DNA of 52,578 bases from Candidatus Bathyarchaeota archaeon (lineage in GTDB: Archaea; Thermoproteota; Bathyarchaeia; Bathyarchaeales; SOJC01), in NCBI GenBank assembly GCA_020341775.1, contig CP070835.1, positions 1,761,862 through 1,814,439 on the forward strand, in the 5' to 3' direction. A model generated the notes under the pieces. The model had not been told where the DNA came from and did no database searches. It worked only from the letters and a program-made list of their open reading frames with translations. Below are positions 1,932 to 6,380 of this stretch, piece by piece. Each line of letters starts with the position of its first letter. The stretch's first letter is position 1. Position numbers and translations under genes: made by a program.

Positions 1932-4040
1932 ATGCCCAATCCAAAACTCCACCGTATCCATAAAGCCGGCATCCAAGTGTTGAAAGCCATCTCTGCACAC
2001 ATTCGCGTGCAAATCCTAAATCTAATGGTTGAGCATGGTCCAATGTCTTATACAGAAATCATGAACGCCCTCAAACTAGATGCAACCCGCGACGCCGGGC
2101 GCTTTGCTTACCACCTTAAATCCTTACTAAGAGCCGATCTAATCGAGCCTGATGTTGAAACTAAAAAGTATCACTTGACAGATTTAGGTCGACACATCAT
2201 TGAGGTTGTCGACGAAATAGAGGATCGAACCTATAGACGGAGAAAGATGGTTGTCCGCACCTCTCGCCTCTCTATCGAAGAATTCGACAGGAACAAAATT
2301 GCACAATCCCTGATCACCGAAGCCGATGTGCCTACAGACCTTGCCCAAAAAATCGCTAGAGAAGCAGAAAAGCGGCTTCAACAATTTAAAACTAAATACC
2401 TAACAGCTCCTCTGATCCGCGAAATTGTGAATGCGATCCTCTTGGAAAGACACTACGAAGACTACCGCCACAAGCTTACACGATTGGGATTGCCTGTTCA
2501 CGAAGTCACCCGCCTAATCGACTCTGCTAGACCTGATGTTGAAGCAGTTCGAAGAGCAGCAGGCAACTCGGTTGTCGAGGAATACACACTTCTTAACATA
2601 CTACCTCGAAAAATCTCAGACGCCCATCTAAGTGGCAGCATACATCTTCACAATCTGAACACGTGGATACTCAAGCCAAAGGAAACCACTCATGACCTTC
2701 AGTATTTCTTCCACGCCTTCACACCCAAAACGCTAGATGCAGCTGTAAATCTAATAACAAACGTTGTACGCAACACCGCAACAGAAATAGCAGGACAGCA
2801 AAACTTAGACAACTTCAATATCCATCTACAACCTTACGCAGAAGGAAACCCCCCTGAAAAGATTAAAGAGCTGCTAACAACCTTCATAGACAATCTTAAC
2901 CAGACAACATCAACTCCCACAACAATAAGCTTAGAGTTTTCCACGAAAAAGAACGTGACATATCCAGAAGTGTCCCACAAACTCATTCTTTTACTATTAG
3001 AGGCAATACAAGAAAAAGCAGAGGTTTATGCTCTGAAAAATCCAAAAATCGTCATCAAAATGCGTAGGGAAGATTTGAAAGACGGAGAAGCAGAAGCTTC
3101 GTTATATGAAGCCCACAAACTTGCCACCGCAAGCATTCTCGTCTACTTCGCAAACTTAAGCCCCGACACCCAAAAAAACGCGACATACACAGCGTCGGGT
3201 TTACGACTAGCCGACGATTGGCTACAAGACTGGCAACTAGACACTCAACGAACAGGAAACCTAGATGATATCACCATCAATCTGCCACGCATTTCCTTTG
3301 ATGCCAAAGGAGACGAAGACAAATTCTTTGAACTTCTCAACCTCAGACTGGATCAAGCCAATCAAGCGCTGGAGATCAAACACAAGACAATCATAGCAAG
3401 AGTAGAACAAAAGCTCTTGCCATACTTAGCACAGAAAACAAACGCAGATCAGTATTTCAATTTTAACGCTGTGACGCGAACAATAACTTCCGTAGGTCTA
3501 AATGAAGCAGTTCAAGCATTGATGGCAAAAGAAGTCACTGAAGATTTTGGAGCTGCTTCCATCCTCATTGAAAAGATTCTAGAACACCTTAACACATACG
3601 CGGAGAAACACTCAAAAAAGCCCCACACTCGACAGACGACCGCCATTATCCCCCATTCAATAGCTGCAAGAAGGCTTGCAAGACTCGACGTAGAAAAATA
3701 TGGGTGGGGAGCTGTAAAAACTCGAGGTTCCAGAGAACGCCCTCGCTACTCAGACATCAATACAATCTCTTTCGCAGAAAAGAGGCACGTAACGCTTGAA
3801 GAGCGAATACACCGACTCAACCAAGGTGGCCATCTTGTGCTCGTTAACAACGAAACGCCCCATCCATCGCCAGAGGAACTGCTAGATAAAACAAAGCAAA
3901 TATTAACCAGTGAAATAGGCTTTTTCATCTACAACAGGCACCTTACACACTGCAGACACTGTAAACACACGTCCCACGGAGCTCATTTGAAATGCCCCCA
4001 CTGCAACTCCACAAACATTCTGACTGCGAACCGTTATTGA
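1932..4040 (+). CDS. Winged-helix / ATP-cone / inactive NrdD-like protein, putative nucleotide-sensing regulator
   Basis: A 702-residue fusion. Residues 1-95 form an ArsR-type winged helix (ISAHIRVQILNLMVEHGPMSY...HLTDLG). Residues about 107-200 form an ATP-cone, the dATP/ATP sensor of ribonucleotide reductases. Residues about 205-670 follow the class III NrdD fold (ends in a zinc ribbon, C674/C677/C688/C691). Catalysis looks impossible: there is no cysteine before residue 674, the LCPD cysteine of NrdD is S410 (LSPD), the active-site CC pair reads TASG near 420-423, and the chain stops before the glycyl-radical RxxGY segment. The intact nrdD follows on the same strand 234 bp later. By analogy with NrdR (zinc ribbon plus ATP-cone) I infer a transcription factor controlling dNTP synthesis. 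Annotation as a reductase would be wrong. Confidence 0.8.
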   Translation: MPNPKLHRIHKAGIQVLKAISAHIRVQILNLMVEHGPMSYTEIMNALKLDATRDAGRFAYHLKSLLRADLIEPDVETKKYHLTDLGRHIIEVVDEIEDRTYRRRKMVVRTSRLSIEEFDRNKIAQSLITEADVPTDLAQKIAREAEKRLQQFKTKYLTAPLIREIVNAILLERHYEDYRHKLTRLGLPVHEVTRLIDSARPDVEAVRRAAGNSVVEEYTLLNILPRKISDAHLSGSIHLHNLNTWILKPKETTHDLQYFFHAFTPKTLDAAVNLITNVVRNTATEIAGQQNLDNFNIHLQPYAEGNPPEKIKELLTTFIDNLNQTTSTPTTISLEFSTKKNVTYPEVSHKLILLLLEAIQEKAEVYALKNPKIVIKMRREDLKDGEAEASLYEAHKLATASILVYFANLSPDTQKNATYTASGLRLADDWLQDWQLDTQRTGNLDDITINLPRISFDAKGDEDKFFELLNLRLDQANQALEIKHKTIIARVEQKLLPYLAQKTNADQYFNFNAVTRTITSVGLNEAVQALMAKEVTEDFGAASILIEKILEHLNTYAEKHSKKPHTRQTTAIIPHSIAARRLARLDVEKYGWGAVKTRGSRERPRYSDINTISFAEKRHVTLEERIHRLNQGGHLVLVNNETPHPSPEELLDKTKQILTSEIGFFIYNRHLTHCRHCKHTSHGAHLKCPHCNSTNILTANRY

Positions 4041-4071
4041 AGAACTCCAATAATATCCAATGCGTTGACAC

Positions 4072-4110
4072 CTTCGCGTCAAACACTTCAGGTGTTAATT
4101 TCCAGCGAAG
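4072..4110 (+). promoter_or_regulatory. Nested stem-loop between the two NrdD-family genes
   Basis: CTTCGC (4072-4077) pairs with GCGAAG (4105-4110), and inside it AACAC (4082-4086) pairs with GTGTT (4092-4096) around a TTCAG loop. It could be a terminator for the upstream gene, an RNA element, or an operator for nrdD. The rest of the 234-bp spacer holds an AT-rich TATA-like stretch near 4122-4130 and shorter palindromes such as ACAGCGATCTGT. Confidence 0.4.
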
Positions 4111-4274
4111 GAGATACAAAATTTTATACAGTTCTTTCTAAAAATTTTAAGTAGCCTACATGGCGTCCTAAATTGACAGCGATCTGTAAATAAAAACCAT
4201 AATCACTAGGGCGTCAGCACGCTATTTTTGACCAAAATGTATATTGAAAATTCTAAGAAGGAAATGACTGTAAT

Positions 4275-6380
4275 GTGTTTTGCTGCGGAGGTTTTTCCAC
4301 GACGACACATCAAGAATTTGCTGTAGATTCGCTCAAATACTTTCCCAGGGTCAGAACTTCCAGAATAATGTTCGAGGACTTCAATCCTGAAAGAATACGA
4401 AACTCCTTGATGAGGGAAACGGAACTTTCCGAAGAAGTTGCAGATAGGATAGCCTTAGACATTGCAAATCGAATAAACACTCTGGACTTAGAGTTCTTGT
4501 CTGGCCCACTGATTCGCGAGTTTGTGTGCGTGGCGTTGCTTGAAAACAACTTTGAACGTTCGAGAGCTCGATACACACGGCTTGGCCTTCCTCTGTTTGA
4601 TGTTGACAAGCTTGTTCGGGCTGGCGACAAGGAAAACGCCAATCTTCAACACAACCCCGAAACAATTCACAAGCTCGCCGCTGACACGATCTTTGACCAA
4701 TACACACTTCTAAATTGTTTGCCACCCCATCTGGCAGATGCACACATTGCGGGAGCCATTCACATCCACGATTTAGAATACTTCGCCACGAGACCCTTCT
4801 GTCAAGAGCATGATTTACGTTTCTTCTTACGCAAAGGGTTGATTGTGGATGGACAAGGCGTGCATACGGCTGTCGCAGGACCTGCAAAGCATCCTGAAGT
4901 AGCGATTCTGCATGCGGCGAAGGCTTTGGCCGCAGCACAGACGAATTGGGCCGGGGGGCAAGGTTACGACTTCTTCAATGTTTGGTTGGCACCTTTTGTT
5001 CGGGGAATGTCGTACAAGCGTATGAAGCAATTGGCTCAGATGTTCATTTATGAGATGTCGCAGATGTACGTGGCGCGAGGCGGTCAAACAGTGTTTTCAA
5101 GTATTGCTCTAGAGTGTGCGGTCCCTCGGATTATTTGGGATGTGCCTGCATTTTTGCCCGGGGGAAAAATTAGCAAGTCGGAAACCTATCAGGACTATTT
5201 TGATGAAGCCAATACTTTCTTTAATGCTATCCTCGACGTTTACATGGGTGGGGACCATTTGGGGAAGCCATTTAATTTTCCCAAGTGCGAGGTGAAGTTG
5301 CGGCGGGAGTATCTCACCAAGTTTGAAGAGGAGTATATCAAAGTGGCCGAATTAGCTTCTAGGTTTGGCACGCCCTACTTTCTGAACTTATGTCCCGATT
5401 ATATGCCTGATATCGTCAATAGTCAGTGTTGCCGGCTAATTTTCGCGCCGGATAGTGATGAGCTGGAAGATTTTCACAAGGGAGCGATGCGGATGGGAAG
5501 TCTGCAGGTGGTGACCATTAATTTGCCACGGTTGGCTTACGAGGTTAATGGAAGCGACAAGAAACTCTTTGAGCTTTTAGATTTGCGTATGGATTTGGCA
5601 CGGGAGGTCTTGTTGATTAAGCGAGACGTCATCCGAGAGCGTTTGAATGGCGGCTCGCTGCCATTCTGCGCCATGGATTGCTTTGGAGAACCATACTTAA
5701 ACTTGGATAAGCAAGTGCTCAACATCGGATTTGTAGGTTTGAATGAGTTGCTTAGAGCGCATCTGGGCGTTGAGTTGCATGAGGGCACAGATGCGTGGCG
5801 GTTTGGACTTCGAGTGATTAGACATATGGTTGACCGTGTGGCTGATTTTGGCAAGGAGACTGGTTTTCGGTTTGGTTGTATACAGACGCCCGCAGAGAGT
5901 TGTGCACATCGGTTGGCTTTAGTTGACCATCGGATCTTTGGGGATGCAGCAGTTGTACAGGGCGACTTGAGTAATGGTGGAATCTACTACACTAACAGTT
6001 CACATGTGCGCCCTTCATCAGGAATTCCATTAATAGACAGAATTAAGATCGAGTCGAGTTTCCATCCGTTGACCAAAGGCGGAGCAATTTTGCACGTGTG
6101 GTTAGGTGAGAGCAACTCTTCGGCTGAGAGCGTTTGGAGCCTAATTCGGCGTGTAGCAACAGAGTCTTTGGCAGCGTATTTCGCATTTACTAGGGATTTG
6201 ACTATCTGCAGAAAATGTAACACTGTCGAAGCGAACTTACAGACGAGATGCAAGACATGCAGGGCCGAGGGTGAAAACCTGGAACATTGGTCGAGGATTA
6301 CCGGATACTACCAGCAACTGCGCGGTTGGAATGCAGGGAAGGTTCAGGAGTTCAAAGACAGACACAGGTATGTCGTATAG
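4275..6380 (+). CDS. nrdD: Anaerobic (class III) ribonucleoside-triphosphate reductase
   Basis: Makes dNTPs from NTPs without oxygen through a glycyl radical. An ATP-cone occupies about residues 25-115 (VRTSRIMFEDFNPERIRNSL), followed by the ten-stranded barrel. Catalytic cysteines are visible as LCPDYMPD (C373) and NSQCCRLIF (C385/C386). The C-terminus has a CRKC...CKTC zinc site and the glycyl-radical motif RITGYYQQL with G677, then GWNAGKVQEFKDRHRY. The GTG start at 4275 is the only obvious in-frame start upstream of the ATP-cone; its first 20 residues look unusual, so the true start is uncertain. No NrdG activase is encoded in the window. Confidence 0.95.
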   Translation: MFCCGGFSTTTHQEFAVDSLKYFPRVRTSRIMFEDFNPERIRNSLMRETELSEEVADRIALDIANRINTLDLEFLSGPLIREFVCVALLENNFERSRARYTRLGLPLFDVDKLVRAGDKENANLQHNPETIHKLAADTIFDQYTLLNCLPPHLADAHIAGAIHIHDLEYFATRPFCQEHDLRFFLRKGLIVDGQGVHTAVAGPAKHPEVAILHAAKALAAAQTNWAGGQGYDFFNVWLAPFVRGMSYKRMKQLAQMFIYEMSQMYVARGGQTVFSSIALECAVPRIIWDVPAFLPGGKISKSETYQDYFDEANTFFNAILDVYMGGDHLGKPFNFPKCEVKLRREYLTKFEEEYIKVAELASRFGTPYFLNLCPDYMPDIVNSQCCRLIFAPDSDELEDFHKGAMRMGSLQVVTINLPRLAYEVNGSDKKLFELLDLRMDLAREVLLIKRDVIRERLNGGSLPFCAMDCFGEPYLNLDKQVLNIGFVGLNELLRAHLGVELHEGTDAWRFGLRVIRHMVDRVADFGKETGFRFGCIQTPAESCAHRLALVDHRIFGDAAVVQGDLSNGGIYYTNSSHVRPSSGIPLIDRIKIESSFHPLTKGGAILHVWLGESNSSAESVWSLIRRVATESLAAYFAFTRDLTICRKCNTVEANLQTRCKTCRAEGENLEHWSRITGYYQQLRGWNAGKVQEFKDRHRYVV

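Follow-up and report, generated by a model that had tools for sequence, protein, structure and literature searches.

A catalytically dead NrdD with a winged helix as a putative regulator of deoxynucleotide supply in Bathyarchaeia and ammonia-oxidising archaea

The window, the whole stretch of DNA analysed here, comprises 52,578 nucleotides from the genome of a Candidatus Bathyarchaeota archaeon (contig CP070835.1), which is 1.92 Mb in size and assembled as a single contig. Near its beginning, on the forward strand, lies a real open reading frame with an ATG start (1932–4040), which encodes a protein of 702 aa with relatives in 40 of the 41 genomes of the order. The protein joins a winged helix and an ATP-cone to a catalytically dead version of the class III ribonucleotide reductase (RNR) NrdD and ends in a zinc ribbon; it is called dead NrdD below. 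An interval with the conserved promoter region of nrdD (4041–4274, forward strand, alignment of 12 genomes) separates it from an intact class III nrdD gene (4275–6380, forward strand), the presumed target.

The winged-helix domain comprises residues 11–98 (1962–2225, forward strand). In Pfam, residues 16–93 match DUF7347 (PF24038) with an E-value of 1e-8 and 35.6 bits against a curated cut-off of 27.6; the matches to HTH_45 and HTH_20 stay below cut-off, and several relatives match PF01022 (HTH_5/ArsR) above it. The domain contains invariant columns, and its helices and beta wing are present in the AlphaFold2 model. The ATP-cone with its following helix (residues 106–200; 2247–2531, forward strand) is recognised by PF03477 at residues 106–178 (9e-7; 29.8 bits, cut-off 25.8) and has the highest conservation in the protein. 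The NrdD-fold body occupies residues 206–698 (2547–4025, forward strand), where PF13597 matches with 2e-62. The score against the NCBIfam model for NrdD (TIGR02487) is 225 bits, below the cut-off of 326, and the identity with the intact NrdD downstream is 28%. The zinc ribbon (CxxC...CxxC; C674, C677, C688 and C691; 3951–4004, forward strand) is invariant in the family alignment.

The AlphaFold2 model has a pLDDT of 85 and a pTM of 0.71. Its top Foldseek matches are all NrdD structures (9d3x, E 1e-25), the highest target TM being that of T4 NrdD (0.71 by target length), and the best PDB matches are NrdD by sequence and by predicted fold alike. Model and structure comparison predict the NrdD fold for a family member from an ammonia oxidiser as well. 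The stretch with Glu290 and Asn298 of PcNrdD, which belong to the dimer-interface specificity site, stays unaligned against the 702-aa protein. An earlier note on this DNA had read from the sequence the order winged helix, ATP-cone, NrdD body and C-terminal zinc ribbon, and had found no cysteine before residue 674. The Pfam matches and the structure comparison bear out the former, and the latter is correct, as the chain contains four cysteines in total, each of them part of the zinc ribbon.

The loss of catalysis is evident at several places of the protein. In the former radical finger loop (3189–3206, forward strand), TASGLR replaces SQCCR; the two cysteines align with G and L, and the position of the thiyl-radical cysteine is taken by L. 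The chain stops where the glycyl-radical segment of its neighbour, RITGYY, begins. Besides these, the protein has lost the substrate flap (NxN), the triphosphate motif (HxHD) and the PAE loop. An alignment of 39 dead family members of the order with 21 active NrdDs gives the same picture: the CC pair and the radical glycine are each found in 0 of the 39, whereas the flap, HxHD and the PAE loop are present in the active NrdDs and gone in all dead members. A stray single cysteine at the thiyl position occurs in four of the 39 (TGCRF, TGCRL or SGCKF), none of which has the radical glycine, and in several relatives the tail is longer and retains RxSxxY as a degenerate remnant. The motif R-x-x-G-Y is absent from all 39 and from all aligned members of the phylum, and the former active-site loops vary freely within the dead family, of which every one of the 39 with a complete C-terminus keeps the four zinc cysteines. 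Structures of Prevotella copri NrdD show that the flap and HxHD bind the substrate (PMC11226230); their loss, together with that of the PAE loop, implies that substrate binding has gone as well as radical chemistry.

The alignment and the structure prediction that the earlier note had proposed as checks thus agree with its account of a missing CC pair (TASG) and a missing glycyl-radical segment at the chain end. The possibility it had raised, that cysteines or glycine are supplied elsewhere in the fold, finds no example, since each catalytic and substrate motif is lost in all the full-length family members examined throughout the phylum. Its use of LCPD, changed to LSPD here, as a sign of a dead active site was dropped, because that cysteine is kept by many dead relatives and missing from two subtypes of active NrdD.

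The wider search of archaeal genomes, also proposed earlier, found the architecture in 40 of the 41 genomes of the order (G026 being the exception) and in most of the phylum sample. At E <= 1e-15, a model of winged helix plus ATP-cone has matches in 111 of the 151 class genomes and in 196 of the 300 phylum genomes; a minority of the hits fall on cones of active NrdDs or on fragments. In the tree, dead and active NrdDs are split along one branch in 100% of bootstraps, with a few long branches of uncertain place within the dead group. The dN/dS of the gene against its relatives is 0.11–0.15, which rules out decay. Conservation is unevenly spread, with a mean column majority of 0.79 for the ATP-cone, 0.73 for the winged helix and 0.52–0.60 for the NrdD body, whose barrel is the least conserved part; this is the opposite of the pattern expected from a decaying enzyme. 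The recognition-helix segment RDAGRFAYHLK is nearly invariant in the order, and DAGRFAYHLK is still recognisable across the phylum. The ATP-cone begins with VRTS, in place of the canonical KRDG, in almost all of the family throughout the phylum; two divergent members have VRR. Being retained so widely, and also by the active NrdD neighbour, VRTS is a feature of the lineage, and because it replaces KRDG, nucleotide binding by this cone is not to be assumed.

Shortened versions of 587–636 aa with a reduced NrdD body occur in families f35 and f32 (L216, L217, L221). The complete zinc ribbon is lost in L217 and L214, two divergent or reduced members. In genome G036, the 3' end of the dead-NrdD gene is present a second time, together with the start of the downstream promoter (L076, 6564–6915). 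This duplicated fragment adjoins a tRNA-like sequence and an integrase-like ORF, and a mobile element was perhaps its carrier.

The gene downstream, which the earlier note had taken for an intact nrdD, is one in full: it contains LCPD, QCCRL, NANLQHN, IHIHD, TPAES, the four zinc cysteines and SRITGYY. The GTG at 4275 is probably not its true start. In the relatives L043, L044, L040 and L050, an indel shifts the upstream start out of frame (window 4275–4320), and a ribosome-binding site (GGGGG/GGAGG) is kept, followed by ACG (ATG in L040 and L050) at window position 4299. Judged by this comparison, the ACG at 4299 after GGAGG may be the real start codon.

Linkage of the two genes extends beyond the window. 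In 22 of 40 Bathyarchaeia the dead-NrdD gene lies codirectionally just upstream of nrdD, in some with a glutaredoxin gene in between; the count takes in G003, whose locus is split between scaffolds, and G011, which retains just a fragment of nrdD next to the gene. G003 was rejected as a case of distant nrdD, because the same promoter stands on both scaffold ends and an assembly gap explains the separation. Roughly every second Bathyarchaeia genome has its nrdD elsewhere. The downstream enzyme itself belongs to three subtypes (NSQCCRL, CYQCCAYCF and RSMCCRL), and two genomes of one genus, G017 and G036, have different subtypes in the same place behind the same dead NrdD.

Several of these loci have peculiarities of their own. 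A small glutaredoxin-like gene precedes the subtype-2 nrdD in one operon (L059, L065, L067, L070); its counterpart in G036 is truncated and stands before a subtype-3 nrdD, which gives the impression of an in-place exchange of the enzyme. Genes resembling pyrB and pyrI (aspartate carbamoyltransferase) adjoin the dead-NrdD/nrdD pair in many Bathyarchaeia (L044, L050, L055, L057, L059 and others), with pyrB on the opposite strand. On the one contig of G011, nrdD is scattered over three places as pieces of 172, 585 and 387 aa (L051, L052, L053), a result of rearrangement or misassembly. The subtype-3 NrdD of G018 (L111, 3691–6747) has 1018 aa and is split at residue 267 by an insertion that is probably an intein.

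Outside the Bathyarchaeia, the gene stands upstream of the class II RNR gene nrdJ in 28 of 28 loci of ammonia oxidisers, at a distance of 99–436 bp (mostly about 200); the families with this linkage are identified as ammonia oxidisers by the presence of archaeal AmoA. No active NrdD was found in the 21 ammonia-oxidiser genomes searched (98–100% complete), where the dead protein is the sole NrdD. Families f60 and f64 have the gene for dCTP deaminase (dcd) as the next one in the same direction. The conserved linkage to RNR genes that the earlier note had looked for is therefore real, if not universal, and it tracks the dNTP pathway rather than one enzyme.

Counter-cases do occur. In nine genomes (f7, f8, G021, G007) the dead-NrdD gene directly precedes pyrB, nrdD having been lost from between them, in several other families it has no RNR neighbour, and unrelated neighbours are seen in other families. 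In f7, G021 and G005, the subtype-3 nrdD is preceded by a bacterial-type nrdR and has NrdR-like boxes of its own at the promoter. NrdR is rare in archaea (PMC9110341). Its model, TIGR00244, finds no match in the source genome; eight of the 41 genomes of the order match it, elsewhere in the genome, and no NrdR model is among the NCBIfam matches of the 702-aa protein. An nrdR–nrdD operon encoding a bacterial-type NrdR is present in eight Bathyarchaeia genomes (subtype-3 loci L111–L125; L133–L136), and NrdR-like boxes lie at its TATA element.

Two candidate control elements are located in the interval before nrdD. The first is a repeat, CGTCAAACA-N6-TGTTAATTT (4076–4102, forward strand), whose candidate operator half-sites are conserved in the family; relatives carry it as TGTCAAACA-N6-TGTCAATTT, upstream of the second element. 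This is a conserved block of 42 bp (4113–4154, forward strand) with the core TACAAAATTTTATACA at 4115–4130, followed by the TATA-like sequence TCTAAAAATTTTAAGTA. An exact-match search for the core TACANAATTTTATACA gave eight matches in 41 genomes, all at a dead-NrdD/nrdD junction or an nrdD promoter, and one in the source genome. A PWM of the block scores 24–53 bits solely at these junctions, and the remainder of about 1 Mb of loci does not exceed about 15 bits. The 42-bp promoter element is thus nearly specific to nrdD. The dyad symmetry of the Bathyarchaeia block is not above that of column shuffling (89/500 shuffles), and a palindrome is not claimed. With a TATA-like element in the block and symmetry at shuffle level, part of the conservation may be that of a core promoter.

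The nrdJ promoters of ammonia oxidisers contain a different element, GTCAA-N5-TTGAA, which is built on TGTCAA and whose dyad symmetry exceeds that of shuffles (2/500). TGTCAA is found in both nrdD and nrdJ promoters, is shared with the repeat described above, and ranks 4th of 2,080 hexamers by joint enrichment. As the sequences compared are related, the enrichment is suggestive, and a half-site common to both promoters is a lead, not proof. An RNA element in the nrdD leader was rejected, as neither an Rfam match nor an RNAalifold consensus was obtained. Further regulon members in the source genome did not emerge: the next-best core matches carry two mismatches, and counts at up to three mismatches are no higher than in the reversed control, so no regulon is proposed. 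Upstream of the dead-NrdD gene itself, a search for operator-like elements yielded only a conserved TATA/BRE-like block (in f1). Binding to its own promoter, considered in the earlier note, is therefore unsupported, and autoregulation was rejected.

These observations make it quite likely that the dead NrdD with its winged helix is a transcription regulator, with putative DNA binding, of RNR and other deoxynucleotide-supply genes. It would probably sense and regulate the supply of DNA precursors. Its origin would lie in an ancestor of these archaea, in which a winged-helix DNA-binding domain was joined to an NrdD that lost catalysis afterwards. The NrdD-fold body would keep the protein dimeric, and the ATP-cone, perhaps along with the ancestral specificity site of the dimer interface, would read ATP versus dATP or dNTP. 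The nucleotide state would set the arrangement of the winged helices and thus how they bind promoter sites of the downstream RNR gene, which would most likely be repressed when dNTPs are plentiful. By analogy with NrdR (PMC9110341), the protein is probably nucleotide-gated and a repressor at high dATP. The proposal of the earlier note, a dead NrdD reused as a dNTP-sensing RNR regulator, stands as regards lost catalysis and retained RNR linkage; DNA binding, binding of ATP or dATP and repression we infer.

Retention of the gene alone beside pyrB after the loss of nrdD, the unrelated neighbours in other families and the TATA-like sequence within the 42-bp block would all suit a regulator of other genes or one with another ligand, for which the RNR linkage is inherited synteny and the block a basal promoter. 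However, several dNTP-supply genes (nrdD of three subtypes, nrdJ and dcd) are linked to it in different lineages, not in one inherited arrangement, and the ATP-cone is the best kept of all domains, so that this explanation is unlikely. Somewhat less credit still is given to a pseudoenzyme subunit that tunes the active NrdD or another RNR and uses its winged helix for protein contacts only. The NrdD fold and ATP-cone that it has in common with its neighbour are in keeping with such a role, and adjacency to nrdD fits co-production. Yet the recognition-helix segment is near the top of conservation, and ammonia oxidisers without an active NrdD keep the protein beside another RNR class, a linkage that a partner of NrdD cannot explain. 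The dCTP deaminase linkage of f60 and f64 is likewise left unaccounted for; taken together, the links to nrdD, nrdJ and dCTP deaminase argue against an accessory subunit of NrdD and for a regulator of RNR and dNTP genes.

Were the protein still an enzyme, using its NrdD barrel for another chemistry without radicals, the retention of barrel and zinc ribbon would be explained, but this is very improbable: the triphosphate and flap motifs, the cysteines and the glycine are all gone, the old active-site loops vary freely, and the barrel is the least conserved part. A decaying nrdD duplicate fused to a winged helix by chance, to which the loss of all catalytic residues might point, is refuted by the conservation of a family-wide, ancient protein under purifying selection and has practically no likelihood left.

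The preferred reading, a regulator of deoxynucleotide-supply genes, can be extended to a general RNR regulator of the archaeal phylum. With the full allostery of an RNR at its disposal (ATP-cone as well as specificity site), it would monitor the entire dNTP pool and adjust how strongly the genes for class III RNR, class II RNR and dCTP deaminase are transcribed, as an independent counterpart of NrdR that has outlived its parent enzyme. This extension is possible, though we hold it to be somewhat short of an even chance.

The transcription-level control of archaeal dNTP supply is largely unknown, and the dead-NrdD family would fill this gap in Bathyarchaeia as well as in ammonia-oxidising archaea, abundant inhabitants of oceans and soils. 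If the interpretation is true, an allosteric enzyme can be converted into a gene regulator with its sensing kept, and an NrdR-like solution has been reached independently. Many ammonia-oxidiser genomes carry one dead-NrdD copy beside nrdJ, which makes the idea directly testable. A large class of proteins is also likely misnamed anaerobic ribonucleotide reductase in aerobic archaea.

The fusion of a winged helix to an enzyme-derived ligand sensor is familiar from the MocR and ROK regulators, which use an aminotransferase and a sugar kinase, respectively. The dead NrdD resembles them in design, as a winged helix with a reused enzyme domain, and differs in the sensor enzyme; we know of no MocR- or ROK-like regulator built from a ribonucleotide reductase. 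A full-text literature search, with subscription journals mostly outside its coverage, returned no paper on, or characterised example of, winged helix, ATP-cone and dead NrdD in one protein. With the archaeal winged-helix regulators of the ArsR/DUF7347 type, the protein has its putative DNA-binding head in common (PF24038; PF01022 in relatives), whereas those regulators are small one-domain or differently fused proteins. With class III NrdD it shares the ATP-cone, the barrel fold and the C-terminal zinc ribbon; it lacks the radical cysteine and glycine, the NxN flap, HxHD and the PAE loop, and adds the winged helix. It descends from NrdD but is no RNR, as the catalytic residues of one are gone.

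A close functional parallel is NrdR, in which loading of the cone with dATP and ATP sets the oligomeric state and DNA binding (PMC9110341). Both proteins would couple an ATP-cone as nucleotide sensor to a DNA-binding domain, a coupling presumed for the dead NrdD, and the genes of both are linked to RNRs of more than one class (nrdRJ in Streptomyces; dead NrdD with nrdD or nrdJ) (PMC9110341, PMC12176259). NrdR, however, has about 150 aa, a DNA-binding zinc ribbon at its N-terminus and no RNR body. In the dead NrdD, the presumed DNA binder is an N-terminal winged helix, and the zinc ribbon is C-terminal and of the NrdD type; homology is confined to the ATP-cone. The dead NrdD would thus be NrdR-like in its working, yet it is not an NrdR, having neither the TIGR00244 signature nor the zinc-ribbon head.
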